Shown here in pieces: positions 4,051 through 64,000 of a stretch of 64,000 bases of DNA. The notes under the pieces were generated by a model that was not told where the DNA came from, did no database searches, and saw only the letters and a program-made list of their open reading frames with translations. The stretch spans positions 4,464,001 to 4,528,000 of the forward strand of contig NZ_CP015839.1 in assembly GCF_001651805.1 (NCBI RefSeq). Direction: 5' to 3'. The stretch is from Marinobacterium aestuarii (GTDB lineage Bacteria; Pseudomonadota; Gammaproteobacteria; Pseudomonadales; Balneatricaceae). A program made the position numbers and the translations under genes. Numbering within the stretch: position 1 is the stretch's first letter; every line of letters starts with the position of its first letter.

Positions 4051-4156
4051 CGAAAGCCTGCGTCCAAGAGGTGTAGCTCCCGCCTGCACGGCCCTACCGC
4101 CACCCTGCGGATTTGCCCGCGCATCCGCAGCGTATTTGGGCAGCAACCGGCAGAAA

Positions 4157-4178
4157 AACGGGGCCCTCAGACCCCGTT
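4157..4178 (-). terminator. Intrinsic terminator of a degraded gene (minus strand)
   Basis: AACGGGG / CCCCGTT stem (4157-4163, 4172-4178), followed on the minus strand by a run of five T. It lies just past the stop codon of the dehydrogenase remnant at 4201, so the old gene's terminator survives although most of its coding sequence is gone. Confidence 0.65.
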
Positions 4179-4200
4179 GTTACACCGCCAGCATCGCGAC

Positions 4201-4295
4201 TCAGAGCACGGACTGTACCGCCTGGGCGAGCGCGGCCGTACTGAGGGTACCCCCCATATCGGGGGTACCGGCCCAGAGGGTCGCTAGCAGATCAC
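4201..4295 (-). pseudogene. 3'-terminal remnant of a tartrate/D-malate dehydrogenase gene
   Basis: The minus strand encodes LATLWAG directly joined to TPDMGGTLSTAALAQAVQSVL and a stop. In the longer homologue at 10459 the same two blocks are separated by 29 residues, so this copy carries an in-frame deletion as well as loss of everything upstream of about 4295. The matching 69 bases at the 3' end differ from the 10459 copy at roughly eleven positions, so it is a diverged paralogue or a piece brought in from another strain, not a recent duplicate. Sequence 4296-4349 is not recognisable. It sits in direct orientation relative to the 10459 gene, bracketing the tctABC-RraA cassette. Confidence 0.75.
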
Positions 4296-4349
4296 CCAGG
4301 CGGTCGATCTTCTCCCGGTGTTGGACGGCGAGGATTTTCGAGGAGCCCA

Positions 4350-5876
4350 CTAATCGTTTTCTCCTGCCGCAGAAGCAACAGGCTGCATACTCATCCGCTT
4401 TCGAAGGATCGGCCCGACAATCATCGGCAAAACAAGCCCGGCAATAGCCACACTCCATATACCGAGGGATAAATTGCTCTGCCAAAGCGCCGTCCAGTCT
4501 CCGTCTGATAACTTCAGCGTATGACGAAGGTTGCTTTCCATCTCCGGCCCTAACAATAGGCCGAGAATAATAGGCACGACCGGAATGTCCACCTTGCGCA
4601 GGAGATATCCAACCACCCCGAAGGCTACCATCAAGTAGAGATCGAATGTCGAATTACTGATCGAATAAATACCGACAAAGGCGATCATCGTCACGATGGG
4701 CAACAGGTAATAGGTAGGTACAGAAAGAATCCGTACGAAAATTCCAATCATTGGGATGTTAAGTATCAACAGTAGGATATTACCGATCAATAGTGCCGCG
4801 ATAACACCCCAGACCAGATCGGCATTCTGAGTAAACATCAGGGGCCCTGGCGTGATATTCAGTGATATCAACATGGCCAGCATGACGGCGGTCGTTCCGC
4901 TACCGGGTATTCCAAGCGTCAACATGGGTACCAGGGCACCACAGGAGGCACCATTGTTGCCGGCCTCAGGCCCGGCAACTCCCCTTGGATCTCCTTTCCC
5001 GAAGTAGCCTTTCCGGCCGACAATTTTCTTTTCCAGAGTGTAAGCTATAAAACTCCCCAGGGAGGCTCCTGCACCGGGTAATACACCGGCAATGAACCCC
5101 AGTATTCCTCCACGAATACTGCTTGGTAGTACGAACAAAATATCTTTAAGAGAAACTTTTAACTTGGCAAGTTTGACAGGGGAATTGGACGACTTCAACC
5201 TTTCTTCAAGGAAGAATATGAGTTCTGAAATGGCAAATAGACCCACAATCAAAATGATAAAATCGATGCCTTCATAAAGCTTGAGTATGCCGAAGGTGTA
5301 GCGCTCGCTGCCTGTCGAATGATCCATGCCGACAGTCGCGATCATCAGACCTATGGTTGCAGAAAAGATCGTCTTGAACGCATTTTTTCCAGTAATCCCG
5401 CCCAGTGTCGCAAAAGCCAGTACAAACAGAGCAAAGTATTCCGCCGGGCCGAATTTGAGTGCGAACTTTGCAAGAAAGGGTGCCAGAATGATCATGCCGA
5501 TGGTTGCGATCAGGCTGCCGATAAACGATGCAACGGCCGATACCACCAGTGCTTCGGCTGCACGTCCCTGTCTGGCCATAGGGTAGCCATCAATGCAGGT
5601 CATCATCGCCGGTTCGTCACCGGGAATGTTTAACAGAATTGAAGATATACGCCCACCATACATCGCACCGACATAAACCGAAGTCAACATGATCAGAGCT
5701 GTTTCAGGGGACAGACCGAGGGCAAAAGCCATTGGGATTAGGATAGCCACACCATTGGATGGCCCCAGTCCCGGCAAGCAACCGATCAAGGTTCCCAAAA
5801 AGGCTCCCAGAACGCCGAACATTAGATTTTCTGGTGCCAGCGCGACAGAGAAGCCCTGTAAAAGTAAGTCGAGCAT
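4350..5876 (-). CDS. tctA: Tripartite tricarboxylate transporter, large membrane subunit TctA
   Basis: 508 residues from the ATG at 5876 (MLDLLLQG), chosen because it lies one base after the tctB stop and matches family length; an upstream in-frame start would overlap tctB. It has ~12 hydrophobic segments with TctA hallmarks: GCLPGLGPSNGVAILIP near the N-terminus, YVGAMYGGRISSILLNIPG, and GVLPGAGASLGSF and GIPGSGTTAVM in the second half. It forms the secondary-active permease with TctB and receives substrate (citrate- or tartrate-like carboxylate) from TctC. The gene is visibly richer in A+T than the flanking chromosome, consistent with acquisition. Confidence 0.92.
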   Translation of the reverse strand: MLDLLLQGFSVALAPENLMFGVLGAFLGTLIGCLPGLGPSNGVAILIPMAFALGLSPETALIMLTSVYVGAMYGGRISSILLNIPGDEPAMMTCIDGYPMARQGRAAEALVVSAVASFIGSLIATIGMIILAPFLAKFALKFGPAEYFALFVLAFATLGGITGKNAFKTIFSATIGLMIATVGMDHSTGSERYTFGILKLYEGIDFIILIVGLFAISELIFFLEERLKSSNSPVKLAKLKVSLKDILFVLPSSIRGGILGFIAGVLPGAGASLGSFIAYTLEKKIVGRKGYFGKGDPRGVAGPEAGNNGASCGALVPMLTLGIPGSGTTAVMLAMLISLNITPGPLMFTQNADLVWGVIAALLIGNILLLILNIPMIGIFVRILSVPTYYLLPIVTMIAFVGIYSISNSTFDLYLMVAFGVVGYLLRKVDIPVVPIILGLLLGPEMESNLRHTLKLSDGDWTALWQSNLSLGIWSVAIAGLVLPMIVGPILRKRMSMQPVASAAGEND

Positions 5877-7540: not shown

Positions 7541-8437
7541 TCACCCGCGAAAAATGGCTGCACTCCGCTTGGCGAGCAGTGCCATGAAACTGTGACAGGC
7601 GGGCGATATGTAGCTGTCATGCCGCGTCAACAGACCAAAGTGGCGATGCATGGTTGTCTCATTGAACGGAATCTCTACCAGCTGTTCTCCGATCTCACCT
7701 TTTGCCAGGTTTCGCCGAGATATGAAGCTAAGCAGTTGAGTCTTGGCTATCAGGCGTGGCAGCAAGGCGAGCGAGTTCGCCTCGATCTGCAGCCGCGGGG
7801 CGGGTAGTCCAAGTTGCTTGAACGTCTGCTCGAGCCAGACCCGGGTCTCCACATTGAGGCCAGGCAGCACCCACCGGTAATCGCGAAGCCGTTCTAGTTT
7901 GCCGACCTGGTTTGCCAGCGGATGCAGTCGGCTGGCGACAATCACGACCTGGTCCTTAACAATGGGCTGGCAGTCAAACTCTTCGCTTTCGGCTGCTGGA
8001 CCAATAACCAAATCGAGATCGCCTTGGCACAAGGCTTCACGCAGCACATCGCTCATGCCAATGGTTAGTGACATGGTGACTTCAGGTGTTAACTCGACAA
8101 GCTCGCTTAGGGCATCCGGGAGCAAGAACTCGGTGAGCGTCGCAGCTGCGCCGATGCGCATGTGCCCTATTCGCCCCTTAGCATAGTCGCCGACTTCACG
8201 CTGAGTTTCATCGATGCTCTGGATGATATTACGGGCGCGCCGAACCAGCACATTGCCAACGGGTGTTAGAACGATTTGCCGCCCTCGACGCTCGAAGAGG
8301 CGCGCATCAAGCTGCTCTTCCAATCGACCAATGCATTTAGTCAGAGCGGGTTGTGAAATATGGAGTTGTTCCGACGCCCGTCGCAAACTGCCGCACTCAG
8401 CGATAGCGGCGAAATAACGAAGATCTCGTTCGTTCAT
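7541..8437 (-). CDS. LysR-family regulator of the tct/aldolase cassette
   Basis: 298 residues from the ATG at 8437 (MNERDLRYFAAI), preferred over an upstream in-frame start because AGGAA lies eight bases before it and the family normally begins there. Helix-turn-helix at ~18-37 (SLRRASEQLHISQPALTKCI), effector-binding domain ~90-290. It is divergent from the hydroxyacid dehydrogenase/RraA genes and lies behind tctCBA, so it probably controls import and breakdown of the same substrate. It resembles CatR/GltC-type LysR proteins; the ligand is unknown. Confidence 0.85.
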   Translation of the reverse strand: MNERDLRYFAAIAECGSLRRASEQLHISQPALTKCIGRLEEQLDARLFERRGRQIVLTPVGNVLVRRARNIIQSIDETQREVGDYAKGRIGHMRIGAAATLTEFLLPDALSELVELTPEVTMSLTIGMSDVLREALCQGDLDLVIGPAAESEEFDCQPIVKDQVVIVASRLHPLANQVGKLERLRDYRWVLPGLNVETRVWLEQTFKQLGLPAPRLQIEANSLALLPRLIAKTQLLSFISRRNLAKGEIGEQLVEIPFNETTMHRHFGLLTRHDSYISPACHSFMALLAKRSAAIFRG

Positions 8438-8610
8438 ATAAACATTCCTAAAAGTTATCACTTCTACAAAAAAAGAAAATAGACTTTATTAATTCAACTA
8501 TCAATACTCAACCTTGTATAGGGGCCTGAAGTCGATGCATGGGACGTCCATGGGGGTACTTCGCAATAACAATCGATTCGCTTTCTGATCCACAAAAACA
8601 AGGTAAACCT

Positions 8611-9546
8611 ATGAGCTACACAATACTCATAACGGCTCCGGCATTAGCGCCGGCCGGTCGGCAGCTGCTCGAGGCACGAGGCTGTGAAACAATCTACATT
8701 CAGGATCAAGCTGACGTTAAGAGGCTGGAGGAATGCCTTTCCAACCGCAGGATTGATGCTGTTATTTCAAGGACCATGCAGCTGACGTCCACAATGATTG
8801 ACTCATGCTCGACACTGAAGGTGATATCCAAACACGGTGTTGGTGTTAGTAATATTGACCTCGAAGCAGCACGCGGCCATGGGATCGCAGTGCTTTCGAC
8901 ACCCGGGGCCAATACCCAGTCCGTCGTCGAGTTTTCCATTGGATTGATGCTCGCCAGTGCTCGCTTTATTGCGTTCTGCGATAGCTCGATGAAATCGGGC
9001 AAATGGGAGCGTATCGACAAAGGTATTCAGCTGGCCGGACGAACGCTCGGCTTGGTCGGTTTTGGTCAGATTGGTCGTGGAGTGGCACGGATTGCAAACG
9101 CCATGGGTATGCAGGTGTTGGTCTTCGACCCAGCTCTGAGTGATGCGCAAGCGAACAATCTGGGCGTCGAGCGGATTTCCTCCATCGATAAACTGCTGCC
9201 ACGCAGTCAAGTACTCAGCCTGCACTGCCCTGCCAAGCACGGCGCGCCGCCACTGCTGGATGCATCTCGTTTGGCCCTGTTGCCACGAGGCGCAGTAGTG
9301 ATCAATACAGCACGTGGCGAATTGATAGACGAGCAGGCACTGGCAGCGGCCCTCAGAAGCGGGCAACTGGCGGCAGCAGGGCTTGACACCTTTGTCTGTG
9401 AGCCGCTGCCCGCCGACAGCCCTTTGCGACAGCTTGAAAATGTTCTGATTACACCTCACGTCGCCGGCTCTACACCGGATGCGTTGGCCGCCATGGCCGA
9501 GGGAGCCGTCCGCAACGCCCTCGAATACCTGGATCAGCATCCCTAG
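8611..9546 (+). CDS. D-2-hydroxyacid dehydrogenase (NAD-dependent)
   Basis: 311 residues from the ATG at 8611 (AAGGTAAACC just upstream); an in-frame start at 8539 would lie in the promoter region. Rossmann motif LGLVGFGQIGRG at ~147-158, catalytic Arg in NTARGELID, Glu in FVCEPL and His in ITPHVAG, i.e. the complete Arg/Glu/His set of the phosphoglycerate dehydrogenase superfamily without a C-terminal ACT domain. It should interconvert a 2-hydroxyacid and a 2-oxoacid in the cytoplasm. Followed 98 bases later by an RraA-type aldolase, it may oxidise the imported hydroxyacid to the 2-oxoacid that the aldolase cleaves (inference). Confidence 0.88.
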   Translation: MSYTILITAPALAPAGRQLLEARGCETIYIQDQADVKRLEECLSNRRIDAVISRTMQLTSTMIDSCSTLKVISKHGVGVSNIDLEAARGHGIAVLSTPGANTQSVVEFSIGLMLASARFIAFCDSSMKSGKWERIDKGIQLAGRTLGLVGFGQIGRGVARIANAMGMQVLVFDPALSDAQANNLGVERISSIDKLLPRSQVLSLHCPAKHGAPPLLDASRLALLPRGAVVINTARGELIDEQALAAALRSGQLAAAGLDTFVCEPLPADSPLRQLENVLITPHVAGSTPDALAAMAEGAVRNALEYLDQHP

Positions 9547-9644
9547 CGGCACCGACAGCCTTCAGCGTTTGGAAGACCCATGGTCTGAACGGAATATTCG
9601 ACCCATGTACTGGACGGAAACAACACTCAGCGAGAACAATTACC

Positions 9645-10334
9645 ATGAGCAACCCAGTTTGGCCGAAAGGCTTCATGATCAACCCACGCCCGGAATCCCT
9701 CGACCCCGAGTTGCTGGCGGCCTACCGTAAGGTGCCAAGCGCTCACGCCAGCGATTGCCTGGGTCGTCTCACCGGAGGATTGGGGTTGCGCGCCTATCAC
9801 AACGACATTGGGTTAACGATGTGTGGCATGGCTCTGACGGTACGTATACGTCCGGGCGATAACCTGATGATTCACAAGGCTATGCTGATGGCGCAGCCCG
9901 GCGACATAATCGTCGTCGACGGTGCTGGCGACCTGACCCAGGCGGTAATGGGAGGCCTTATGCGGACCACCGCATTGACCCGCCGTATTGGAGGACTGGT
10001 GATCAACGGCGCAATCCGCGATGTGGCGGAATGGGCGGAAGGCGAGCTGCCTGTCTATGCCCTCGGGCATGTTCATCGCGGCCCTAGCAAGACTGGCCCA
10101 GGCGAGGTCAACGTCCCGGTCGCCTGTGCCGGCATGGCCGTTACGCCGGGCGATCTGATCATCGGTGACGCTGACGGTGTCGTATCGGTCCCACGGGACG
10201 CTCTGTCTGACTTGTTACCGCTGGTGAAAGCCCATGCTGAGCATGAGGATAAAATACGCCAAGTAAACCGCGAGAAGGGCGGTGACGAGGTGCGCTTCGC
10301 AGAGTTATTACGCTCACTCGGCTGTCCGGTCTAG
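9645..10334 (+). CDS. RraA-family aldolase (HMG/CHA aldolase-like), copy 1
   Basis: 229 residues of the RraA/DlpA family, class II pyruvate aldolases that cleave 4-hydroxy-4-methyl-2-oxoglutarate or 4-carboxy-4-hydroxy-2-oxoadipate and decarboxylate oxaloacetate. The metal-binding GGLMRT...NGAIRD block (glycine-rich turn, then Arg-Asp ~20 residues later) is at ~101-125, and SDCLGR at ~36. A close paralogue lies at 21746, and both end in GCPV. Context (carboxylate importer, hydroxyacid dehydrogenase, LysR) supports catabolic aldolase function rather than the RNase E inhibitor role of E. coli RraA. The exact substrate is unknown. Confidence 0.87.
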   Translation: MSNPVWPKGFMINPRPESLDPELLAAYRKVPSAHASDCLGRLTGGLGLRAYHNDIGLTMCGMALTVRIRPGDNLMIHKAMLMAQPGDIIVVDGAGDLTQAVMGGLMRTTALTRRIGGLVINGAIRDVAEWAEGELPVYALGHVHRGPSKTGPGEVNVPVACAGMAVTPGDLIIGDADGVVSVPRDALSDLLPLVKAHAEHEDKIRQVNREKGGDEVRFAELLRSLGCPV

Positions 10335-15385: not shown

Positions 15386-15594
15386 CAGCCAACTACTTTT
15401 ATAAAGCAGCTTAAAGCTTTAAATGCAGACCTATTATTTTATCAACCTGAACAACAATGAAATTCCCTACCCACCTGCCATCTCTGAAAAAACGGAAGCA
15501 AGCACGCGAACTGGTAAATTATTAAGTCTACTTTATTTAAGGAATCAAGCATCCCTGCTCCATTTCTTAATTTTTTATAGAATACTTCTCTTTT

Positions 15595-17097
15595 CTAAAA
15601 TCCGAAGACGGTCTCTGCAAGCAGATACATGGCAATAAATGTTACCATCACAGCGATAATATTCAGCCAAAAGCCAGCCTTGACCATATCCCGGAGCTGC
15701 ATCTTGTCATAGGAAAAGACGATAGCATTGGGCGGAGTCGCTACAGGCATCATGAATGCCATTGACGCTGCGACCGCCACCGGTACTGCGAGCATTCGGG
15801 GATCCAGCCCGAGCCCAACGGCGACAGCGCCAAGAATAGGCAGAAATGTCGCCGCGGATGCCGTATTCGACGTAATTTCAGTTAGGTAAATAATCGATGC
15901 GCTGACTACAAGAACTAGCAACCAGCTACTGATATCAAAGCTCGAAACCGAAGATCCCACCCATTCGGCCAGACCCGTGCTGCTAAATGCACCCGCCAGC
16001 GCCAGACCACCGCCAAACAACAGCAGCACGCCCCAAGGCAAATCCTTCGCCACACTCCAGTCAAGTACGAACTCGCCTTTTTCCCGCGACAGCGGCCAGG
16101 CGAACAGCGCCAGAGCTGCCAGCAAGGCAACCGTGGTATCACTGATGGGTAGGCCGGTCATCGCGGCCAATTGCGAGCGAAAGATCCATCCAAGTGCTGC
16201 GGCCAGAAAAACCCCGCCGACGATTTTCTCCGCCTTGCTCATTGGGCCCAGCTCCGCCAGCTCTCCCTTAACTACCTGCCCAACATCGCCTATTTGAATC
16301 TGACTCGCTGGAAAAACGACTTGGGTCAGCATTAGCCAGCTCAGCGGTAACATCACCAGCACTATTGGCACACCAAACAGCATCCACGTCAGGAAATCGA
16401 TCTGAATGTCGTAAGTCACCGACAAAAAACTGGCTAGCAGGGCATTGGGGGGCGTACCTATCAGCGTGCCTATTCCACCGATGGTTGCGCTATAAGCGAT
16501 ACCCAGCATGAGCGCCACACCGAAGTTGCGGACCGCTTTGTCATCCGCTGTTTTGTGCGCTACAAAGTCAATCACCGACAGCCCGACGGCATACATCATG
16601 ATCGTCGCCGAGGTGTTTGATATCCACATGGATAGAAAGCCCGTTGCCAGCATAAAGCCTCCGATGACACGGCTCGGCGTAGTACCAACGATCGCCACTA
16701 TGCGCAGAGCGATACGCCGGTGCAAGCCCCACTTTTGCATTGCAGCGGCCAGCAGAAAACCACCTAAAAACAGGAAGATCAACGGATTGGCAAAATTGGC
16801 CGCCACGGGTTTAAGATCAGCAATGCCAAACAGAGGCATAAACGGGATCGGCAGGAGCGCTGTCGCCGGAATCGGCACCGCCTCACCTAGCCACCAGATG
16901 ACCATCCATGCAGCCAACGAGACCAAATGCCAAGCCTGTGCATTCATCCCCTCCGGGGCCGGCAGCAGATAGAGCAACAAGGCTGCCAGCGGACCCGCCA
17001 GTAGCGCGATAAAACGTAACTGCGACGCGCCGGACTGGGCTACGATAGCCACGCCAGCAGCAGGCTCCATGTTTTGGTTAATATTGACCATAGTCAT
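15595..17097 (-). CDS. DASS-family (SLC13) sodium/dicarboxylate symporter
   Basis: 500 residues, ~11-12 membrane helices. Two SNT signature motifs (WISNTSAT ~ residue 160 and TEITSNTAS ~ residue 407) bind sodium and carboxylate in this family, and GTLIGTPPNALLASF and MPVATPPNAIVF are the paired hairpin loops. It should import a di- or tricarboxylate or sulfate with sodium. AGGAG lies ~10 bases before the ATG. It points away from the LysR-leuCD genes but lies inside the same repeat-flanked cassette, so it is likely the cassette's importer. Confidence 0.92.
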   Translation of the reverse strand: MTMVNINQNMEPAAGVAIVAQSGASQLRFIALLAGPLAALLLYLLPAPEGMNAQAWHLVSLAAWMVIWWLGEAVPIPATALLPIPFMPLFGIADLKPVAANFANPLIFLFLGGFLLAAAMQKWGLHRRIALRIVAIVGTTPSRVIGGFMLATGFLSMWISNTSATIMMYAVGLSVIDFVAHKTADDKAVRNFGVALMLGIAYSATIGGIGTLIGTPPNALLASFLSVTYDIQIDFLTWMLFGVPIVLVMLPLSWLMLTQVVFPASQIQIGDVGQVVKGELAELGPMSKAEKIVGGVFLAAALGWIFRSQLAAMTGLPISDTTVALLAALALFAWPLSREKGEFVLDWSVAKDLPWGVLLLFGGGLALAGAFSSTGLAEWVGSSVSSFDISSWLLVLVVSASIIYLTEITSNTASAATFLPILGAVAVGLGLDPRMLAVPVAVAASMAFMMPVATPPNAIVFSYDKMQLRDMVKAGFWLNIIAVMVTFIAMYLLAETVFGF

Positions 17098-17461
17098 CAG
17101 ATCAAAACTCCTCTCTTATAGTTATTTGAACAGGCGGATACACTATCCCGGAACAGGCATAGTTTAAGAAACGAACGCTCGTCATTATTATTTTCTCGCA
17201 TATATATTATTACGATATAAGATCAGATAAAGCAGCCCAATCAAAAAACATTGAAAATATTATAATTTACAAGGCGATTAAAAAGTTCACAGAAACATAT
17301 TTTATTGCACAGACAAAAGCCATTATGGGCGACTATGCCATATGTTAATTTATTCCCAGAAATGGCCACAGATGCACAGGCTTACTGAATTTTTGAGTGA
17401 AGGGATACTCACATTGGGCAATAACCTAAGACCCAATCATAAAGCATCCCTGCTTCATGTA
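17098..17461. other. A+T-rich intergenic region upstream of the DASS gene
   Basis: About 360 bases with long A/T stretches (for example around 17190-17290), noticeably different from the GC-rich surroundings. It must contain the DASS gene promoter. I find no convincing ORF or repeat in it. Confidence 0.5.
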
Positions 17462-18352
17462 TTAACCCGCCGAGTTAATAGTAAAAAAACCTAACACCTC
17501 ATCCAGTAATATTTCTGGCACTTCCTCCGCAATATAATGTCCAGCAGGCAAAGGTTTCCCTCGGACATCCAGCGCCACTTGCTGCCACTCGGCCAGCGGA
17601 GAAAAACATTTCCCAACGGTGCCCTGCTCGCCCCACATCACCAAAAGCGGGCAACCCAGCTTGCGACCAGTTGCCGCGTCAGCCCTGTCATGCTCCAAGT
17701 CAATACTGGCGCTTGCCCTGTAATCCTCGCAGATCCCTGTAGCCGTACCAGGCAGGCGGAGGCAACGCAGGTATTCAGCCTGCGCTGCTTCAGTGAACGG
17801 TCGCATACCGGCGCTTCTGGCGCCCAGAACACTGTGAAGATAAAGCTGCGGATCCGTTTCGATCAGTATCTCAGGCAGGGGCGCCGGGCGGATCAGAAAA
17901 AACCAGTGCCAGTAGGCCCTGGCAAACTCCAGATGGGTCTGTTCATACATAGACAATGTCGGTGCTATATCCAGCAGAACCATTCGCTCTACTGCATCCG
18001 GATGATCCAGCCCAAGCCGGTGAGCGACCCTGGCCCCTCGGTCATGAGCAAGCACGGAAAAGCAGTCAAAACCAACGGCTTTCATTAGCTCAACCTGGTC
18101 TAGCGCCATAACTCTTTTCGAATGCGCCAGGTGATGCTCGGACGCAGGCACCTTTTCGCTGTCGCCATAGCCACGCAGGTCTGCCGCCACCACCGTAAAA
18201 TGTTTCGCCAACGACTGGGCAACCTTGTGCCAGATAACGTGAGTTTGCGGATGCCCGTGCAACAACAGAAGTCCTGGGCCATCGCCACCAATACGGCAAT
18301 GAATCTGGACACCGTTTACGTGATAAGTACCTTGCGTAAATCCGGCAAACAT
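17462..18352 (-). CDS. Alpha/beta hydrolase, fluoroacetate/haloacetate dehalogenase-like
   Basis: 296 residues from the ATG at 18352 (GGAG nine bases upstream). Aligned by eye with fluoroacetate dehalogenase RPA1163, every key position is present at a near-constant offset: nucleophile Asp104 and Arg105/Arg108 in HDRGAR, acid Asp128 in LLDIAPT, halide pocket His149-Trp150 in YWHW and Tyr211 in EDYRAS, and base His272 in GHYIAEE. The enzyme should hydrolyse the carbon-halogen bond of a short haloacid to a hydroxyacid in the cytosol. It is divergent from a LysR gene and upstream of aconitase-like and aldolase genes, suggesting use of a halogenated or related carboxylate. A non-halogenated ester substrate cannot be excluded. 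Confidence 0.85.
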   Translation of the reverse strand: MFAGFTQGTYHVNGVQIHCRIGGDGPGLLLLHGHPQTHVIWHKVAQSLAKHFTVVAADLRGYGDSEKVPASEHHLAHSKRVMALDQVELMKAVGFDCFSVLAHDRGARVAHRLGLDHPDAVERMVLLDIAPTLSMYEQTHLEFARAYWHWFFLIRPAPLPEILIETDPQLYLHSVLGARSAGMRPFTEAAQAEYLRCLRLPGTATGICEDYRASASIDLEHDRADAATGRKLGCPLLVMWGEQGTVGKCFSPLAEWQQVALDVRGKPLPAGHYIAEEVPEILLDEVLGFFTINSAG

Positions 18353-55899: not shown

Positions 55900-56400
55900 T
55901 TACTGCAGCGTCTGGCTGGTCGGCACCTGAGTGTCAAACAGCTGCGCAGGCGCCCCCCAGTCCAGCGACTGGCTGCCACGGTGCAGCAGATGCAGAACCT
56001 GATGCAGCTCGGCGTAATTGAGCACACTGACTGCAGCCACCTCGTCGCTATCGCCGGTAAAGAAACTCAGCTGATAGCGCCCGCCGCGAAAGCTGGCATC
56101 GAGCCTGTGCAGCACTGCGGCCGGCGCCCGCGTCTGCAGCGGCGCCTCCTGCACCTGCAGTGCTTCACGGGCCTGTTCATGCTCAAACTGCGCGACGGCT
56201 TCCCGATGTTCCGGCGCCGTACGACTGACCTGCTTTGAAGTCCTGCGAATCAACTCGTCCGCGGCGCCCAGAATACGCAGGCACAGACGCCTTGTGAGCC
56301 AGAAATCGACCCGTGGCTGGCCGTTGTTCATATTGCCAATCAGCCGGATGCGATCTTCGCCCTGGTCATACTGAAAGGTAAAAGATCCAATATTTGTCAT
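55900..56400 (-). CDS. Protein of unknown function
   Basis: 166 residues, soluble. FTFQYDQGEDRIRLIGNM at the start and WLTRRLCLRILGAADELI (~34-51) suggest a small alpha/beta protein, followed by a Glu/Gln-rich helix and YQLSFFTGDSDEVAAVSVL (~108-126). No family recognised. Divergent from the PhnD-like operon across 248 bases. Confidence 0.65.
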   Translation of the reverse strand: MTNIGSFTFQYDQGEDRIRLIGNMNNGQPRVDFWLTRRLCLRILGAADELIRRTSKQVSRTAPEHREAVAQFEHEQAREALQVQEAPLQTRAPAAVLHRLDASFRGGRYQLSFFTGDSDEVAAVSVLNYAELHQVLHLLHRGSQSLDWGAPAQLFDTQVPTSQTLQ

Positions 56401-56648
56401 GTTTCCACCCTACCCCCATCCCCGCAAAGAGGTCAACTTTGGCCAGAAGTGAGACCCAGATGCGTCCCGTTAATGGTAAAAAACGGTGCATCCAACGCTG
56501 TCACCCAGCGACCAGCCACGCTGTGCAGCTGCACAAAGAAGCCAATAAATTCAATGCGTTATATATTGATGTTTGACAGGATTCCAGCACCTACTCTAGT
56601 ATCGGGTGCCATCCAAACAAACGTATGAATTACTCGGGAGACAACAGG

Positions 56649-57587
56649 ATGTTATATCGCCACCAGCATTCACCTGTCTATCCCCATGTCTCCAGCCACC
56701 CGCGCCCAGTCATGCTGCTGCGATGGGCCGCTATCCTGCTGCTGGTCGTGGCTTCACTGCTGGCCGATGCTCTGACCCTGGCGCCCCGGGCCGCAACCCA
56801 GGAGCCGCTGACGCTCGGCATACTGCCAAGGCGCAACGCGACCCTGACAACGGAACTCTTTACGCCCCTGGTTGAATACCTGAGCAAGTCGCTCGGACGC
56901 AAGATACAACTGGTCACATCAAAGGACTTCGACAGTTTTCTGCAGGACGTAAAGGATGAGCGTTTCGATATAGTGCACTACAACCAGTTCCATTATGTCC
57001 GTTCATCCGTGCAGTACCGCGTCATCGCCCATAACAGGGAGTTCGACCGCAGCACTGTCGCCGGCGCACTCTATGTCAAAAAAGATAGCGGTATTACCCG
57101 CGTCGAACAGTTACGCGGCAAGACGATCATTTTTGGCGGCGGCCAGGACGCCATGATGAGCTATATACTGCCACGCTACCTGCTGATGCAGGCCGGTCTG
57201 CAGCCGGGTGACTACCGGGAAATTTTTGCCAAAAGTCCACCCAACTCACTGATCGGACTGTACTATGATGAAGCCCAGGCCAGCGGTGCTGGCGATATTC
57301 TGATCGACCTCAAGGTGGTCAAGGACAGTGTGGACACCAGTCAGCTGACCCACCTTGCCGTCACAGAACAGCTGTTGCACCTGCCCTGGGCAGTACGCCG
57401 CACCATGGAGGACGAAGACGCGGCACAAATTCAGGCGCTGCTGATCGGTCTCGAAGCCAGCCAGGAAGGCTTGGCAATCCTTAAACAGGCCCAAATGACT
57501 GGCATAGGAATTGCCAATGACGACAGCTACGCCCCCCACAGGCGTATCATTGATCAGGTCATGCCGCCCAGTCAGGATCGTCCCTGA
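56649..57587 (+). CDS. PhnD-like periplasmic oxyanion-binding protein
   Basis: 312 residues from ATG 56649 (GGGAGACAACAGG upstream; ATG 56625 is also in frame). Signal/anchor ~22-45, then a phosphate/phosphite/phosphonate-type fold: LGILPRRNATLTTELFTPLVEYL (~66-88), FDIVHYNQFHYV (~112-123), GGGQDAMMSYILPRYLL (~167). There is no ABC permease or ATPase; instead a GGDEF-EAL gene begins 15 bases later, so it may act as a ligand-presenting sensor partner. First gene of a five-gene unit. Confidence 0.82.
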   Translation: MLYRHQHSPVYPHVSSHPRPVMLLRWAAILLLVVASLLADALTLAPRAATQEPLTLGILPRRNATLTTELFTPLVEYLSKSLGRKIQLVTSKDFDSFLQDVKDERFDIVHYNQFHYVRSSVQYRVIAHNREFDRSTVAGALYVKKDSGITRVEQLRGKTIIFGGGQDAMMSYILPRYLLMQAGLQPGDYREIFAKSPPNSLIGLYYDEAQASGAGDILIDLKVVKDSVDTSQLTHLAVTEQLLHLPWAVRRTMEDEDAAQIQALLIGLEASQEGLAILKQAQMTGIGIANDDSYAPHRRIIDQVMPPSQDRP

Positions 57588-57602
57588 CGACGGAGCATAG
57601 AA

Positions 57603-59666
57603 GTGCGCTTAGCCTCCAGGTTCATTCTTATTGTCAGTGGCATTCTGTCGGTGACGCTCGCACTCAATGCCTACTACTTTATCCACAGCCAGAATCAGTT
57701 GCTGGAACAGCAACTTAACGAGCGCGGCCGCGTACTCGGCCACCTGATCGCACTGATCAGCCCCGAAGCCATGCTCAGCTTCGATTTCCTGACCCTCAAC
57801 GAGTATGCCCGCGAAGTGTCGCGCCAGCGCGATGTCGTCTACGGCGTTATCGTCAACGCCAAAGGCACGCCCCTCACGTCCTTTTTCAATCGCCAGGACC
57901 CCCGCGTACTGGATGCCCTGCAGGCGCTTGATCTGGATCTGGAAACCGCTCCTTTGACCCCGCCCAAAACGGCCCAACTGGTGACGCGCCTGTCGTCCAG
58001 CCTTTATGACCTGCTGCCCATGGAATTTCCCATCAGCCATGGCGATCGCCCGCTGGGGCAGCTTAAGGTCGGCATCAGTCGCGAGCAGCTGCACTCCCAG
58101 ACCCAGCGCCAGCTACTGATTCAAAGTTCGATCTACGGTCTGATCATCCTGTTCCTGTGCAGTGCCATCTTCTGGGTCTTCCGCTACAACGTCATGGGCC
58201 CCGTCAACCGCCTGATGGCCGCCTCCCGCAATGTCGGCCTTGGCGAATTGGAAGAAGTGGCGGTGACCTCAAGCGACGAGCTAGGCAGCCTGGCCGAAAC
58301 CTTCAATGCAATGATTCACGCCATACGTGAGGAGCAGGCCAAGCTGCACTATCAAGCTAACCATGATGCGCTGACCTCACTGCCTAACCGCATGATGGCC
58401 ATCGATCGGCTGGAACACGAGCTGCATCAGGCACGGCGCCACAATGAGCTGCTTGCGGTGATCTTTATTGATCTGGACAACTTCAAGGTGGTCAACGACA
58501 CCATGGGACATGCCGCCGGTGACGAACTACTGGCCATGCTTGGCGCCCGCCTGCTGTCCCGTCTGCGTGATGTAGATACCCTGGCACGCCTGGGCGGTGA
58601 TGAATTCCTGGTACTGCTGCCGCGGATACAGAATATTGATGAAGTGAAGCAGATCGCAACACGACTGCTCGAAGCCACCTCCGAGCGCATGATGCTGTAC
58701 AGCCGTGAAGTCATAGTGCATTGCAGTATCGGCATCGCACTCTACCCGGATGATGGTATCAGCGCAGAAGAGCTCATGGCCAACGCCGACAACGCCATGT
58801 ATCAGGCCAAAACCCCGGGCCACCTGCCCATCTGTTTCTTCACCCAGGAAATGAACGTGCAGGTACGCCAACGGCTGCAGCTCGAGCAGGACCTGCACCT
58901 GGCGGTCGAGCGCGGCGAGCTGGAGCTCTACTTCCAGCCCATCGTTCAGGCCGGCCATTGCCGGCCCATAGGGGCGGAAGTCTTGCTGCGCTGGCAACAC
59001 CCGCAAAATGGCACTATCAACCCGGCAACCTTTATCCCCCTGGCTGAAGCCACCGGGCTGATAATCCCCATCGGCGACTGGGTGCTGCAACAGGCCACAT
59101 CCTTGCTGCGACACTGGCTCGACCTGGGGCTTGCCCCCGGTACCCTGGCGATCAACATATCCCGCCTGCAACTGCAGGAACGGCTGATTTCAGTCATCCA
59201 GGATCTGGTGACAGAGCATCGCATTCCGGCGAACATGCTCGAGCTGGAGATGACGGAAAATATTCTGCTGGATGACCACGCCAAGATCAGCGAAACACTG
59301 GATCAGCTGCAGGCCATGGGGCTCAAGCTCAGCCTGGACGACTTTGGCACCGGCTACTCATCCCTCAGTTACCTGCGGCGCTTCTCCTTCGACGCACTCA
59401 AGATCGACCGCAGCTTTATTCAGGGATTGCCACAGGATCAGGACGGCTGTGCTCTTATCGGCGCCATAGTAGTGATGGCCCATCGCCTTGGGCTGCGTGT
59501 TGTCGCCGAAGGCGTGGAAACCATCGAGCAGCGTGACTTCCTGCAACAGCAGGGCTGTGATTACCTGCAAGGCTACCTGCTGGCCCGGCCCATGACGGTC
59601 GACGCCTATCAGGCAACCCTGCCCAGCCAGGTCTGCCCGCGACTGAGTAAAGACAAGGAGATGTAA
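57603..59666 (+). CDS. Membrane GGDEF-EAL protein (c-di-GMP turnover)
   Basis: 687 residues starting at GTG 57603 (GGAG eight bases upstream). Helix ~7-26, periplasmic sensor ~27-175, helix ~178-200, HAMP ~200-252, GGDEF ~255-420 with intact active site (GGDEF ~331) and I-site RDVD five residues before it, EAL ~435-680 with EVL in place of EAL (GAEVLLRW) but DDFGTGYSS and the other metal-site elements retained. It could make and degrade c-di-GMP, with phosphodiesterase activity possibly lowered. The periplasmic part probably contacts the PhnD-like protein encoded just upstream. Confidence 0.9.
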   Translation: MRLASRFILIVSGILSVTLALNAYYFIHSQNQLLEQQLNERGRVLGHLIALISPEAMLSFDFLTLNEYAREVSRQRDVVYGVIVNAKGTPLTSFFNRQDPRVLDALQALDLDLETAPLTPPKTAQLVTRLSSSLYDLLPMEFPISHGDRPLGQLKVGISREQLHSQTQRQLLIQSSIYGLIILFLCSAIFWVFRYNVMGPVNRLMAASRNVGLGELEEVAVTSSDELGSLAETFNAMIHAIREEQAKLHYQANHDALTSLPNRMMAIDRLEHELHQARRHNELLAVIFIDLDNFKVVNDTMGHAAGDELLAMLGARLLSRLRDVDTLARLGGDEFLVLLPRIQNIDEVKQIATRLLEATSERMMLYSREVIVHCSIGIALYPDDGISAEELMANADNAMYQAKTPGHLPICFFTQEMNVQVRQRLQLEQDLHLAVERGELELYFQPIVQAGHCRPIGAEVLLRWQHPQNGTINPATFIPLAEATGLIIPIGDWVLQQATSLLRHWLDLGLAPGTLAINISRLQLQERLISVIQDLVTEHRIPANMLELEMTENILLDDHAKISETLDQLQAMGLKLSLDDFGTGYSSLSYLRRFSFDALKIDRSFIQGLPQDQDGCALIGAIVVMAHRLGLRVVAEGVETIEQRDFLQQQGCDYLQGYLLARPMTVDAYQATLPSQVCPRLSKDKEM

Positions 59667-59672
59667 GTCAGC

Positions 59673-60242
59673 ATGCAACAACCCGCCCATTCGCCTGCAG
59701 TATTGCGTGCCAGAGCCGCCCGCAAAGAGACGCTGAGCGCTACAGTACGACCACTATTGTGTACCGTCATGCTATTGCTGTTTGTGCTTTGGGTACATCT
59801 GGGTTCTGGACTTGCCACCTTCTCGCACCAGACCCGCACCGAGCCCGGCTGGGACGACTTTCGGGAGGCCTACCAGGTCGACAATTTCGGTCGCGACGGC
59901 TATTTTGTGCGGGCCGTGCAAAACGGCTACAACCTGACGCACCATACACCCGACTATGCCTGGCGCTTTACCCGCAAATCCGCCACCGATGCCAACAACA
60001 GCTGCAGCAGTTGCCACAGCAATGAAGATCTGGCCTATGCCCTGGTCAACGGGGATAGATTCGTACCTGAGCTGGACCGACGTGTATCCTTTGAGGAAAG
60101 CGTGATGCGCTGCTATGCCAAGCACCTGGATGGCTTCGTGCCGACGATTTACGACCCGGCGGTGCGTGATGTGCGCATCTTTGCCCGCATGGTGGCCCAT
60201 CACCTGCAACTCGGTGAGGGCAGCCTGGGAGTATCCCCCTGA
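59673..60242 (+). CDS. Monoheme SoxA/TsdA-like cytochrome c
   Basis: 189 residues. N-terminal membrane anchor ~28-48, then a c-type heme site CSSCH at 111-115. A cysteine follows in VMRCYAKHLDGF (Cys147), where SoxA/TsdA-type cytochromes carry the unusual Cys heme ligand. VRDVRIFARMVAHHL resembles the closing helix of that domain. Periplasmic, anchored electron carrier or subunit of the diheme protein encoded next; its stop overlaps the next start. Confidence 0.8.
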   Translation: MQQPAHSPAVLRARAARKETLSATVRPLLCTVMLLLFVLWVHLGSGLATFSHQTRTEPGWDDFREAYQVDNFGRDGYFVRAVQNGYNLTHHTPDYAWRFTRKSATDANNSCSSCHSNEDLAYALVNGDRFVPELDRRVSFEESVMRCYAKHLDGFVPTIYDPAVRDVRIFARMVAHHLQLGEGSLGVSP

Positions 60243-61318
60243 TGGAACTCTCCCAGCGAACCCTGAAAATCACCCAGTTAGGGCTGCTGCTCGCCCTGCT
60301 GGCAGGCCTCTACGGCGTGGCCCAGAGTTATCACGGCGAACGGGCGCAGATTCGCCAGAGCGCGGTCACGCTCACACCCGGCTGTGAGGCGAAGCTGTCG
60401 GACTATGGGCTCAAGCCCGGCGACGTCTACATTTCGCCCTACATCGAGCAAAAGACCGGCCAGCAGGTCGTCAGGCAGGGTTACAGCGCAGAAGATGTGC
60501 GCGCCATTGAGCGCGGCTGCAATATCATCGACGACCTGCAGGGCCAGCATGCCGAGGACAATCGGCTCGAGCGCTGGAACTCGACCCGCTTTGTACGCGG
60601 TAACCAGACCAGCTGTGATCACTGCCACCAGGGGATCGGCGACAAGCAGAACCCCGACGGCGAGCCCCAGATAGGTTCCCTGAGCCTGGGGGCCTCCTGG
60701 GTCATGGCCGACATGTATGACCGCTTCACCGGCATCTTGCTGCCCTACGAACTGCGCCAGATGCAGTGCTATATCAACTCATCCAATGGCTTCAAGCCCA
60801 ATATCGCCGACGATCTGATCGGCGATGTGACGGCTTACAGCCGCTTTCTGTCCGCCGCGCTGGATCTTCGTATCGGCAACCGCTACCCCGAACAGGGTAT
60901 CGACGAGGTCACCGCCTCCATGACCGACAAGCGCGGTGACGACTATGTGCGCGGACAGTCGCTGTACCGGGACAAATGCGCCCAGTGCCATGGCCAGCAG
61001 GGGCTGGGCACCCTGGTGGACAAGCAGGTACTCTTCCCCGCCGTGGCCGGCCCCGATGCCTTCAACCTGCAATCACGCAACAACTTTTCCTTTGTTTCGA
61101 CCATCCTGCCCGGATTTATCTGCCGCAATATGCCACTGGGCCAGGAAGGTACCCTGGAGCCCCAGGAATGCCGCGACATCGCCTTTTATATCAGCAACCT
61201 GCCCAGACCCGCCGGCGACAAGCAGGGACCGCTGGCCGCGGCCTGGCAGCAGGTGATGATGTTTGTCATGCCACCCCTGGTGGCTGCCGTTGAAAACTTT
61301 CACGCCAACAAGCCGTAA
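60242..61318 (+). CDS. Diheme SoxA/TsdA-like cytochrome c
   Basis: 358 residues. N-terminal helix ~10-27 (anchor or signal), first heme CDHCH at 125-129, candidate Cys ligand in QMQCYINSSNGF (Cys176), second heme CAQCH at 246-250 and a possible Met ligand in CRNMPLG. The spacing of CxxCH, SLGASW, Cys-x-x-S-x-NG and the closing DVTAYSRFLSA matches the TsdA/SoxA layout, which acts on thiosulfate. A thiosulfate dehydrogenase or tetrathionate reductase-type reaction is inferred, not proven. Confidence 0.8.
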   Translation: MELSQRTLKITQLGLLLALLAGLYGVAQSYHGERAQIRQSAVTLTPGCEAKLSDYGLKPGDVYISPYIEQKTGQQVVRQGYSAEDVRAIERGCNIIDDLQGQHAEDNRLERWNSTRFVRGNQTSCDHCHQGIGDKQNPDGEPQIGSLSLGASWVMADMYDRFTGILLPYELRQMQCYINSSNGFKPNIADDLIGDVTAYSRFLSAALDLRIGNRYPEQGIDEVTASMTDKRGDDYVRGQSLYRDKCAQCHGQQGLGTLVDKQVLFPAVAGPDAFNLQSRNNFSFVSTILPGFICRNMPLGQEGTLEPQECRDIAFYISNLPRPAGDKQGPLAAAWQQVMMFVMPPLVAAVENFHANKP

Positions 61319-61333
61319 ATCCAAGGATCCAGC

Positions 61334-62893
61334 ATGCACGCCTCCCTGATGAACCGCGGCAAAGACTACGCGATCGGCAACAGTCTGCTGGTAGGCCTCA
61401 CCCTGGCGGTAGTAGTCCTGCCCCAGGCGATCGCCTTTTCCACGACCCTGGCAGGGCTGCCGCCCTACTTCGGCATCTATGCCGCTATCTGGGGCGTGCT
61501 GTTCACCGCCCTGCTCAACCCCTCGCGAATATTCCACGGCGGCCCGAACAGCGCCATGTCGGCGGTGATAGGCGTGACCCTGCTGCCGGTGGCACCCCAG
61601 TTCGGCAATGACTATATCGGCTACGCCCTGAGCCTGATTCTGATGGCTGGCGTCTTCCAGCTGCTGTTCCTGCTGATTCCCGCCCTCGGCCGCATGCTGG
61701 ACTTTCTCAGTGAGCCTGTGATTAACGGCATGATCTGCGGCATAGGCCTGTTTCTGATCTTCAAATCCTTTGCGGGCTTTGCCGGCCTGCCGATTAATAC
61801 AGAGGTGGAATGGCCCCTGTGGATAGCCTGGCAGACCTTCCTTGCCATGCTCGAAATTGGCAACATGCATGCCATCCACATAGGCCTGGTGACCCTGGTG
61901 GTCACCGTACTGGCGCGGCAGTTTCAGCCCATTCGCAATGCCGCCATCCTGCTGGGGATCATCGCCGGCACCCTGCTGTCGGAATACCTCAACAGCCGCT
62001 ACGGCCTGGAAAATACCCTGATCGAGCAGACCGCCGACATGTCCGCCATTGGCTTTGTGTTCCCGTCCCTTCCGCTGTTCACCCAGGAAGCCATGCCCGA
62101 CCTGATCAGCATTATTCCAGGTGCCATCACGCTGGCATTGCTGGGGCTGTTTCAGACGGTGGCTGCCATGCGCCGCATGAATCGCAAGCAGGGACACTAC
62201 ATCAGCGCGCGCCATGGCATCTTCGCCGACAGTCTCAGCAACTGCCTGCTGCCCTTTATATCCTCGCTGCCGACCTGTGCTTCGTTCAACCGCATGTGGC
62301 TGATGCACGCCATGGGGGCCGTCAGCCGCCTGGCAGCGGTTTTTTCAGGCCTGATACTGTTACTGCTGGTGCTGTTTTTCTCCGACCTTATTGCCATTAT
62401 TCCGATCCCCGCCATGGCCGCCACCATCATGATCGTCGGCGCCAACATGATTAAGTGGTCGGATATAAAGCCGCATTTCCACAACCTCCCCGAAGCCATC
62501 GTATTTTCGGCATCCTTTGTATCGGTGCATGTTTTCGGGCTCTTTGGCGCGGTAATCTGTGGTTCCCTGCTGGCGCTGGCCTATGCGAAATGGGAAAAAG
62601 CCCACCCCAATGTGTCGATGGACGGCAATATTCTGCGCATCAAGGGCAACATCTATTATGGGTCTCTGCCGGTAATCGAATCCCTGTTCCACAAGGCCAT
62701 AAGCCAACAGGATGAGCTGGTAGTGGATTTCTCGGCGGTACACCACATAGACCCGGAGGGCGTTCGCTGGCTCACAGAGCTCCGGAAGCATGAAAAGGTA
62801 CGCTTCATGGACAGACGCAGTGGCATAGACAGACGCACCGGCAAGCGCGTCAAACACAGCAAGACCGATCGACGCCAGCGCCGGGTACTTTGA
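61334..62893 (+). CDS. SulP-family anion permease with STAS domain
   Basis: 519 residues, ~12 membrane helices (~15-425) and a C-terminal STAS domain (~430-500; IKGNIYYGSLPVIES, VVDFSAVHHIDPEGVRWL). LPQAIAFSTTLAGLPPYFGIYAAIWG and FHGGPNSAMSAVIG match SulP transporters of sulfate, bicarbonate and other anions. A basic tail DRRSGIDRRTGKR...DRRQRR follows STAS. Last gene of the binding-protein / GGDEF-EAL / cytochrome unit, 15 bases behind the diheme gene, so a sulfur anion is the likely cargo (inference). Confidence 0.9.
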   Translation: MHASLMNRGKDYAIGNSLLVGLTLAVVVLPQAIAFSTTLAGLPPYFGIYAAIWGVLFTALLNPSRIFHGGPNSAMSAVIGVTLLPVAPQFGNDYIGYALSLILMAGVFQLLFLLIPALGRMLDFLSEPVINGMICGIGLFLIFKSFAGFAGLPINTEVEWPLWIAWQTFLAMLEIGNMHAIHIGLVTLVVTVLARQFQPIRNAAILLGIIAGTLLSEYLNSRYGLENTLIEQTADMSAIGFVFPSLPLFTQEAMPDLISIIPGAITLALLGLFQTVAAMRRMNRKQGHYISARHGIFADSLSNCLLPFISSLPTCASFNRMWLMHAMGAVSRLAAVFSGLILLLLVLFFSDLIAIIPIPAMAATIMIVGANMIKWSDIKPHFHNLPEAIVFSASFVSVHVFGLFGAVICGSLLALAYAKWEKAHPNVSMDGNILRIKGNIYYGSLPVIESLFHKAISQQDELVVDFSAVHHIDPEGVRWLTELRKHEKVRFMDRRSGIDRRTGKRVKHSKTDRRQRRVL

Positions 62894-62934: not shown

Positions 62935-62961
62935 CAGTGCCTGCCTATCAGGCAGGCACTG
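62935..62961. terminator. Hairpin between the SulP gene and moaA
   Basis: Perfect 12-bp stem CAGTGCCTGCCT / AGGCAGGCACTG with a 3-base loop between the convergent SulP and moaA genes. No long T-run follows, so termination strength is uncertain. Confidence 0.7.
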
Positions 62962-63006: not shown

Positions 63007-64000
63007 TTAGCCCCCGGTCATGTTCATGAAGCGAACTATCTGTACGTCGCCGTCATTACTGAAGTGGTGGCGCTCCGGCTTGTGCACAATGGCTTCCACT
63101 ATAGCGGCCTTGAGACGTTCAATGTCACCGGGGTAGCGTCGCAGCAACGCCTTGAGATCCAGCGAATCTTCGTTACCCAGGCAGAGTAACAGGCGGCCTT
63201 CCACCGTCACCCGTACCCGGTTACAGTCTCCGCAGAAGTTATGGCTGTGGGGCGAAATAAAACCGACACGACTGTTACTGTCCGCCATGCGCCAGTATTT
63301 CGAAGGGCCACCGCTGGACTCGGTCGTCGGCAGCAGCGGATAGTACGGCTCAATCAGCGCCCGTACGTCGTCACTGGAACAGAAGGTTTCGGCGCGGTCA
63401 TGCTCGGATATCTGCCCCAGAGGCATTTCCTCGATAAAGCTGATGTCCAGGGAACGATCCCGGGCATAGCGCACCAGTTCATGCACCTCGTCGTCGTTGC
63501 GCCCCTTGAGCACAACGGCATTCAGTTTGATGCGTTCGAATCCTGCTTCCCTTGCAGCCTCAATACCATCCAGAACCTGCTCCAGCCGCCCGGTACGGGT
63601 AAGACGCAGAAAGCGATCCGGCTGCAGACTGTCGAGACTGATATTCAGACGATTCACACCGGCATCCTTCAGCTGCCGGGCATAACGGCGCAGCTGCGAG
63701 CCATTGGTCGTCACACAGAACTCGCGCAGCCCCTCCAGTTTGCCGATACCATCAAACAGAGTGATGACATCACGTCGCACCAGAGGCTCGCCGCCGGTCA
63801 GGCGAACCTTGTTCACCCCCAGCTCCGTGAAAGCCTTGGCAATAGTCTGGATCTCTTCTAGCGACAGGACCTGCTGGCGCGGCAGGAACGTCATGTCCTC
63901 GCCCATACAGTAGACGCAACGGAAATCACAACGATCCGTCACCGACATCCGTACGTAGGTAATCTGGCGTCCGAAAGGATCAATTAGCTGCTCAGTCGCC
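63007..64000 (-). CDS. moaA: GTP 3',8-cyclase MoaA, N-terminus beyond window
   Basis: Radical-SAM enzyme of molybdopterin synthesis; 313 residues from an internal Met plus 17 further codons to the edge ([17 protein letters not shown]), so the true start lies outside. CDFRCVYC carries the SAM cluster, [11 protein letters not shown] and [10 protein letters not shown] follow, [18 protein letters not shown] holds the second cluster, and the protein ends with the essential Gly-Gly. Molybdopterin would serve, among others, molybdoenzymes of sulfur metabolism. Confidence 0.95.

Follow-up and report, generated by a model that had tools for sequence, protein, structure and literature searches.

We analysed a stretch of 64,000 nucleotides from the genome of Marinobacterium aestuarii (contig NZ_CP015839.1, positions 4,464,001 to 4,528,000; hereafter the window), which contains five intact open reading frames (ORFs) on the same strand at window positions 56649-62893, encoding in this order a periplasmic binding protein of the PhnD/PtxB superfamily, a GGDEF-EAL enzyme of cyclic di-GMP (c-di-GMP) metabolism, two c-type cytochromes (cyt1 and cyt2) and a SulP permease. 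The five genes are a real and conserved module built of known kinds of protein, which is apparently undescribed: in the open-licence papers searched, no description was found of the five-gene unit or of tsdA-sulP gene pairs. We put at roughly one in two the probability that they work as one unit, in which TsdA-like redox chemistry of the thiosulfate/tetrathionate type and SulP-mediated transport would stand under the control of c-di-GMP.

Conservation and distribution of the five-gene unit

The first-pass annotation of the window had taken the five genes for a single unit, and this is borne out by their conservation. A pattern scan with the cyt2 alignment, covering one genome per species for 84,980 species, matched 81 stretches, 39 of which encode a cyt2 relative (from at most 38 genomes, as one metagenome-assembled genome, MAG, contributes two contigs, loci L062 and L073). 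All five genes are found in 28 of these 39 loci, three of which (L054, L055 and L061) have a contig that begins inside the GGDEF-EAL gene; of the remaining 11 loci, six contain cyt1, cyt2 and SulP only, with room for more genes, and five are cut by a contig end. Cyt1, cyt2 and SulP form a separable core, and the binding protein and the GGDEF-EAL protein are a detachable part of the unit. The hosts are Marinobacterium, Motiliproteus, Aromatoleum/Azoarcus and many MAGs, and two gene orders occur: the binding protein gene comes first in ten loci (Marinobacterium, Aromatoleum/Azoarcus, Motiliproteus and one MAG), and the GGDEF-EAL gene comes first in 18, the majority being MAGs with Burkholderiales or Betaproteobacteria in their titles. 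A second binding protein gene is present in two loci with the latter order, the two copies lying in tandem between GGDEF-EAL and cyt1 (L053, positions 3572-5526; L063, positions 7968-9901). Two MAG records are titled Bordetella parapertussis (L051 and L061), probably wrongly; their units group with those of MAGs titled Betaproteobacteria or Burkholderiales.

Lack of joint conservation in relatives had been named in advance as one observation that would speak against a unit. The comparison covered 57 genomes, the window's own and those of 56 relatives. Cyt1, cyt2, the binding protein and the GGDEF-EAL sensor part have their strong matches in one and the same group of five genomes, each belonging to the window's genus, so that the genes do keep together, although two of the seven genomes of that genus in the set are without the unit. 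The sensor part gave one further match, at 31%, in genome G018. A search with SulP, independent of cyt2, found more than 60% identity in four of 339 genomes of the class, each time adjoining cyt2, and clear relatives of cyt1 outside the own genome were seen in two of 369 class genomes, next to three weak matches. The unit is rare, as a search of a 398-genome sample of the phylum with the cyt1 profile matched the own genome and gave one weak match, with no clear relative elsewhere in that sample.

The trees of cyt2, SulP and the PhnD-type binding protein join Marinobacterium, a gammaproteobacterium, to the betaproteobacteria Aromatoleum/Azoarcus, with supports at this fork of 83/82, 90/68 and 96/89, respectively. 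The same grouping is present in a cyt1 tree made with a quick method (support 82); it was read in these four trees, the GGDEF-EAL tree having been seen in part. The roots are midpoints, some supports are modest and the position of Motiliproteus varies between trees. The grouping suggests that the unit was transferred between bacterial classes. A viral origin and a plasmid location were both rejected: no cyt2 relative is encoded in the 41 viral contig stretches that fit the pattern, and all 45 plasmid records matching cyt2 have less than 60% identity, with none covering 80% of cyt2.

It is very improbable that the five genes are neighbours, or are transcribed together, without a joint function. 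A shared operon is no proof of shared function, and GGDEF-EAL proteins are common; however, the unit persists in different classes, with two gene orders and few shared flanks, its genes are present or absent together in the same 5/57 genomes, and the C-terminal tail of SulP tracks the presence of the sensor pair (see below). Chance neighbourhood is ruled out by conservation of the unit across loci. Further conserved genes around the unit were also looked for and rejected: of the 41 loci in the comparison, no more than 12 have any other gene family in common, and the widest one (12/41) resembles, as we read its sequences, the multi-copy Bug/TTT receptors that are common in Burkholderiales.

The two cytochromes

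By its sequence, cyt2 is a divergent relative of TsdA. In a profile search against the PDB, it matched TsdA with an E-value of 5.3e-20 over residues 120-324, and TsdA and TsdBA were the top Foldseek matches of the predicted cyt2 model (predicted local distance difference test, pLDDT, of 69, without hemes), which was used for ranking folds only. In TsdA, thiosulfate is described as being held by Arg109, Arg119, Ser127 and a backbone amide, with the heme ligand Cys123 bearing the intermediate; according to the same source, Ser127 does not vary in TsdA and is lacking in SoxA, and Arg109 is less well conserved within TsdA (PMC4423706). For the second heme, an Asn235/Met236 pattern is described (PMC9237845). 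When six cyt2 and nine TsdA-type sequences are aligned, Arg172, Cys176 and Ser180 of cyt2 are identical at the positions of Arg119, Cys123 and Ser127, and Asn296 and Met297 occupy those of Asn235 and Met236. Among the 37 loci covering these positions, Cys176 and Arg172 are kept in 37 and Ser180 in 36. The wider cyt2 alignment (A3) was built from 33 of the 39 loci and the window. Cys176 is the predicted ligand of the first heme and Met297 that of the second.

Cyt1 is, as far as its predicted heme ligation goes, a free-standing relative of the Cys-ligated heme domain of cyt2, the two domains being homologous in an hhalign comparison (98.3%, 1.2e-14). Its residues C111, C114, H115 and C147 are invariant in the 36 aligned sequences (alignment A4, 35 of the 39 loci and the window), and Cys147 is present in 37/37 loci. 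The Pfam SoxA-TsdA family PF21342 is matched by 27 of the 36 cyt1 members at E-values up to 0.1, the best being 4.9e-4 and the window's own 0.05. SoxA as the nearest relative by profile was rejected: the first heme domain of SoxA (2c1d) gave a weak match (E 0.026), and as an unrelated WD-repeat protein scored higher (E 0.0058) that search alone proves nothing. The annotation as SoxA/TsdA-like cytochromes nevertheless holds, since profile and structure searches agree on it despite weak or absent Pfam matches.

The active-site residues bear on another possible role of the cytochromes, in which they would sense redox state or a ligand instead of acting as a metabolic enzyme, and all five genes would make up a signalling device with the GGDEF-EAL protein as its recipient; we consider this improbable. 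Hemes with a Cys ligand have low potentials and carry electrons poorly, and at the site matching TsdA Ser127 cyt1 has a Ser in 7/37 loci only (L053, L054, L061, L064, L068, L071 and L073), both of which would suit a sensor. Against this, Arg is kept at the Arg119 position of cyt1 in 29/37, because of which cyt1 may be catalytic too, and the Ser suggests the same for the lineages that carry it. Moreover, six of the 39 loci have cyt1, cyt2 and SulP but neither a GGDEF-EAL protein nor a binding protein of the types seen here, which means that the core has its own role.

SulP, its linkage to tsdA and its arginine-rich tail

The annotation of the last gene as a SulP permease was confirmed by its Pfam domains, PF00916 (Sulfate_transp, 6.9e-48) and PF01740 (STAS, 3.6e-7). 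SulP genes are also associated with ordinary tsdA genes: ten of 35 tsdA windows contain one, vs none of 35 controls (Fisher p 9e-4), and seven of these ten are on the same strand as tsdA, overlapping it or up to 237 bases downstream. One of the ten (L097) was known beforehand, and without it the count is 9/34 with p unchanged. Some genomes contributed two windows, and the controls were drawn from a smaller number of genomes, with no one-to-one matching (total length compared 542 kb for tsdA windows and 630 kb for controls). Cyclic nucleotide monophosphate (cNMP)-binding and rhodanese domains were found on six TsdA-linked SulPs (L091, L122, L123, L124, L126 and L066), while the Pfam scan showed no such domains on the SulPs of L097 and L105. 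The scan covered, from the ten SulPs near tsdA, five (four with rhodanese, and L105 without) plus L097, leaving out L103, L104, L119 and L121. In L122, L123, L124 and L126, and likewise in L091, a TsdA-family gene is followed or overlapped by the SulP-cNMP-rhodanese gene. L091 (5316-9361, outside the 35-window count) encodes a three-heme TsdA-type cytochrome, a SulP of 940 amino acids and a divergent PhnD-superfamily gene, whose protein is 37% identical to one adjoining the core trio in L029/L050. This second PhnD-superfamily type is thus encoded, in divergent orientation, next to a TsdA-type cytochrome and SulP both in L029 (9706-10620) and in L091 (9685-10509). In L066 (3605-6166) the SulP belongs to the cyt1-cyt2-SulP core of a MAG, with the cNMP-binding and rhodanese domains in place of the Arg-rich tail. 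Rhodanese is a thiosulfate sulfurtransferase, and as it sits on TsdA-linked SulPs, import of thiosulfate by these would be the simplest reading; the tsdA-sulP linkage and the SulP-rhodanese fusions together suggest that SulP transports compounds of the thiosulfate type.

In units with a GGDEF-EAL gene, SulP continues past a conserved Arg-Trp-Leu near the end of the STAS domain with 37-54 Arg-rich residues containing DRR-like repeats. At the thresholds used, this tail is present in all 27 loci where tail and GGDEF-EAL are both visible, and also in L055, L060 and L062, whose sensor end is truncated. Among the six core-only loci, the tail is missing from four, short in L056 and replaced by the cNMP-rhodanese domains in L066; it is also missing from L070, which is cut. 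The correlation suggests, without proving it, a physical link between the c-di-GMP enzyme and SulP via the tail. As the six core-only loci form one clade in the cyt2, cyt1 and SulP trees, the correlation may stem from a single evolutionary event. More specifically, the DRR tail might be a cytoplasmic receptor for c-di-GMP (or for the GGDEF-EAL protein), through which the binding protein, by way of the operon's GGDEF-EAL, would control the passage of the product of the cytochrome pair. We regard this as doubtful, but if true, cyclic-nucleotide control of TsdA-coupled SulPs would be a general principle with two routes, the tail or the cNMP-rhodanese domains, and a c-di-GMP-gated SulP would to our knowledge be a new kind of effector. 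In L046 (11454-12927) SulP is split into two frames and is whole in the near relative L047, which reflects either an error or decay.

The binding protein and GGDEF-EAL pair

The first protein of the unit had been annotated as a binder of oxyanions. Its Pfam match (PF12974, 3.8e-44) and its predicted model, which has a PtxB/ArrX/AioX-like fold (pLDDT 88.5), fit that family, but the motif is missing. The phosphite motif of PtxB is given as S130, T131, S132 and H160 (PMC5700983); their counterparts in the alignment are A168, M169, a residue 170 that is Met, Ile, Leu or Val, and P197, and A168, M169 and P197 are found in 29/29 binding proteins, with an invariant Asp167 ahead making an Asp-Ala-Met sequence. 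The alignment (A5) comprised 25 of the 39 loci (27 proteins) and the window, leaving out L064 (where the range runs past a stop), L040, L041, L051, L060 and others; the binding protein gene of L051 has an in-frame stop. As the STS-His residues are replaced by Ala, Met, a hydrophobic residue and Pro, oxyanion is here a family label only and doubtful as a function.

The GGDEF-EAL protein is predicted to be an enzyme, as had been annotated, with both sets of motifs intact: GGDEF in all 28 homologues covering it, EVL in 25/29 and EAL in 4/29, and DDFGTG and AEG(V/I)E each in 29/29. In enzymes of this kind, these are the catalytic motifs. A GGDEF-EAL protein with a sensor part 31% like the window's is encoded in L162 (7840-9921), where the ORF list has no adjoining binding protein.

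Predicted function of the unit

In the mechanism that we infer, as to heme ligands, anchoring, substrate, direction, transported ion, sensed ligand and c-di-GMP effect alike, the core would be a SulP transporter and two c-type cytochromes, the latter probably anchored in the inner membrane. Cyt2 would interconvert thiosulfate and tetrathionate, or a close sulfur oxyanion, at its Cys-ligated heme (Cys176, with Arg172 and Ser180), via a sulfur adduct on Cys176 and with the electrons passing on to the His/Met heme. Cyt1 would supply a second, free-standing Cys-ligated heme domain. SoxAX has two Cys-ligated hemes and one His/Met heme, and cyt1 and cyt2 together would have a similar heme set, split differently between the genes. 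SulP would move the substrate or the product, most likely thiosulfate, through the inner membrane. The binding protein would sense a periplasmic ligand and set the activity of the GGDEF-EAL protein, and c-di-GMP may act on the Arg-rich SulP tail as well as on lifestyle.

The sulfur theme, which the first-pass annotation had already put forward, is backed indirectly by the TsdA-like catalytic residues, the SulP-tsdA linkage and the rhodanese-bearing SulPs. Several points weigh against it. Within cyt2, the position of TsdA Arg109, which is Lys in the nine TsdA-type sequences, is Phe162 in 36/37 loci and Val in one (L066), so that the substrate of cyt2 may differ from that of TsdA; the confidence of the cyt2 model is middling; and Pfam recognises the cytochromes poorly, with PF21342 not listed for the window's cyt2 at E-values up to 1 (it matched the cytochrome c family alone), whereas the two ordinary TsdA proteins tested both score about 40 bits on this family with a cut-off of 27. 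Beyond the unit, 25 of the 35 tsdA windows are without a SulP, and a scan of ten proteins encoded next to L044 and to three core-only loci recognised no known sulfur protein; one of the ten, beside L050, is a further PhnD-superfamily protein. Finally, SoxB was found above the cut-off in 15 of 34 host genomes (32 of the 39 locus genomes and two more) vs 74 of 185 class genomes (a sample that includes two hosts), which is no enrichment, and none of the nine named isolate hosts reaches the cut-off. An association with the Sox pathway was therefore rejected. The five-gene unit itself contains no SoxYZ or SoxB partners, and the genome-wide search covered SoxB, not SoxYZ.

An alternative is that the same architecture serves another substrate, such as an organic thiosulfonate or polysulfide, an oxyanion of selenium or of another kind, or a protein thiol as in SoxAX, with SulP moving another anion, which we hold to be a possible but less likely explanation. 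It would fit not only Phe162 but also the Gly-rich loop of TsdA, which in cyt2 is replaced by Ser-Arg279 and a three-residue insertion, the four extra conserved cysteines (Cys48, 93, 294 and 310), the binding-protein pocket without an oxyanion motif and the absence of SoxB enrichment in the hosts. However, the equivalents of Arg119, Cys123 and Ser127 are kept, including the residue described as TsdA-specific relative to SoxA (PMC4423706), and SulP occurs near ordinary tsdA elsewhere, sometimes with a rhodanese. Next to Phe162, Arg161 is Arg in 31/37 loci and Gln in six, and might stand in for Arg109. Because the catalytic positions are kept and position 109 is changed, the chemistry of cyt2 is probably TsdA-like with an altered substrate pocket. 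The nine isolates without SoxB above the cut-off carry an apparently mobile unit, probably for thiosulfate or tetrathionate, with a c-di-GMP input of its own; this would tie sulfur redox chemistry directly to the decision to attach or swim.

Gene layout and flanking sequences

The genes of the unit (Table 1) are separated by 15, 6, -1 and 15 bases. The first-pass annotation was right about the single direction, and its gap range of -1 to 16 bases is corrected to -1 to 15. The binding protein gene has GGAG ahead of its ATG, and an in-frame ATG at 56625 is an alternative start. The unit stands alone, with a divergent ORF upstream (55900-56400) and a convergent, moaA-like one downstream (63007-63948). 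Three promoter-like sites were found in the region, no more than in shuffled sequences, and what speaks for the candidate promoter is thus its position. Near the core-only unit of L029, a long frame (15580-17952) with repeated CxxCH motifs likely encodes a large multiheme cytochrome.

Table 1. Features of the five-gene unit, in window positions
Feature	Positions	Strand	Remarks
Candidate sigma-70-like promoter	56573..56602	+	TTGACA, 18 nt, TAGTAT (10/12); 46 bases ahead of first gene
PhnD/PtxB-superfamily periplasmic binding protein, 312 amino acids	56649..57587	+	PF12974; N-terminal hydrophobic segment 21-39 (signal or anchor)
HAMP-GGDEF-EAL (EVL) c-di-GMP enzyme, 687 amino acids	57603..59666	+	GTG start; two hydrophobic segments around ~150 amino acids
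cyt1, one-heme cytochrome	59673..60242	+	CSSCH 111-115, invariant Cys147, N-terminal hydrophobic segment
cyt2, two-heme TsdA relative	60242..61318	+	CDHCH 125-129, CAQCH 246-250, N-terminal hydrophobic segment
SulP permease with C-terminal STAS domain, 519 amino acids	61334..62893	+	Pfam
SulP arginine-rich C-terminal tail, residues 493-519	62810..62890	+	DRR repeats
Terminator-like hairpin	62938..62954	-	Between SulP and convergent moaA-like gene; within chance expectation

Comparison with known systems

The binding protein shares its fold and sequence family with AioX, ArrX, PtxB, HtxB and PhnD, but lacks the STS-His motif and is encoded with a GGDEF-EAL protein rather than with an ABC transporter or a histidine kinase. 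As a pair, the binding protein and GGDEF-EAL protein resemble NspS-MbaA of Vibrio and XAC2383-XAC2382 of Xanthomonas, which likewise consist of a separate periplasmic binding protein and a membrane c-di-GMP enzyme; NspS, paired with MbaA, is described as sensing polyamines. XAC2383 (5ub3, 5ub7), at rank 18 among the top fold matches of the binding protein, is reportedly the binding partner of the diguanylate cyclase XAC2382, and we know of neither pair being found beside cytochromes or SulP.

The tsdA-sulP pairs (L091, L122, L123, L124 and L126) resemble the unit in that a TsdA-family cytochrome adjoins SulP, but they have an ordinary TsdA domain and their SulPs are only 30-33% identical to the window's; in L091, the one pair where these were looked for, neither cyt1 nor GGDEF-EAL was matched. 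SoxAX is similar to cyt1 and cyt2 in having Cys-ligated heme domains in a multi-heme complex, and differs in that the unit has no SoxYZ or SoxB, splits the domains differently and keeps the Ser127 equivalent in cyt2. The closest likeness is that of cyt2 to TsdA and TsdBA (A. vinosum 4wq7, M. purpuratum 5lo9), with the same two-heme layout, the Cys, Arg119 and Ser127 equivalents and the Asn before the second-heme Met; cyt2 differs from TsdA by its N-terminal hydrophobic segment, an extension of ~100 amino acids, the Phe at the Arg/Lys109 position and the extra cysteines. Compared with TsdBA, the partner cyt1 is of the Cys-ligated type, while TsdB is His/Met, and here the cytochromes are encoded in an operon with SulP and c-di-GMP genes.

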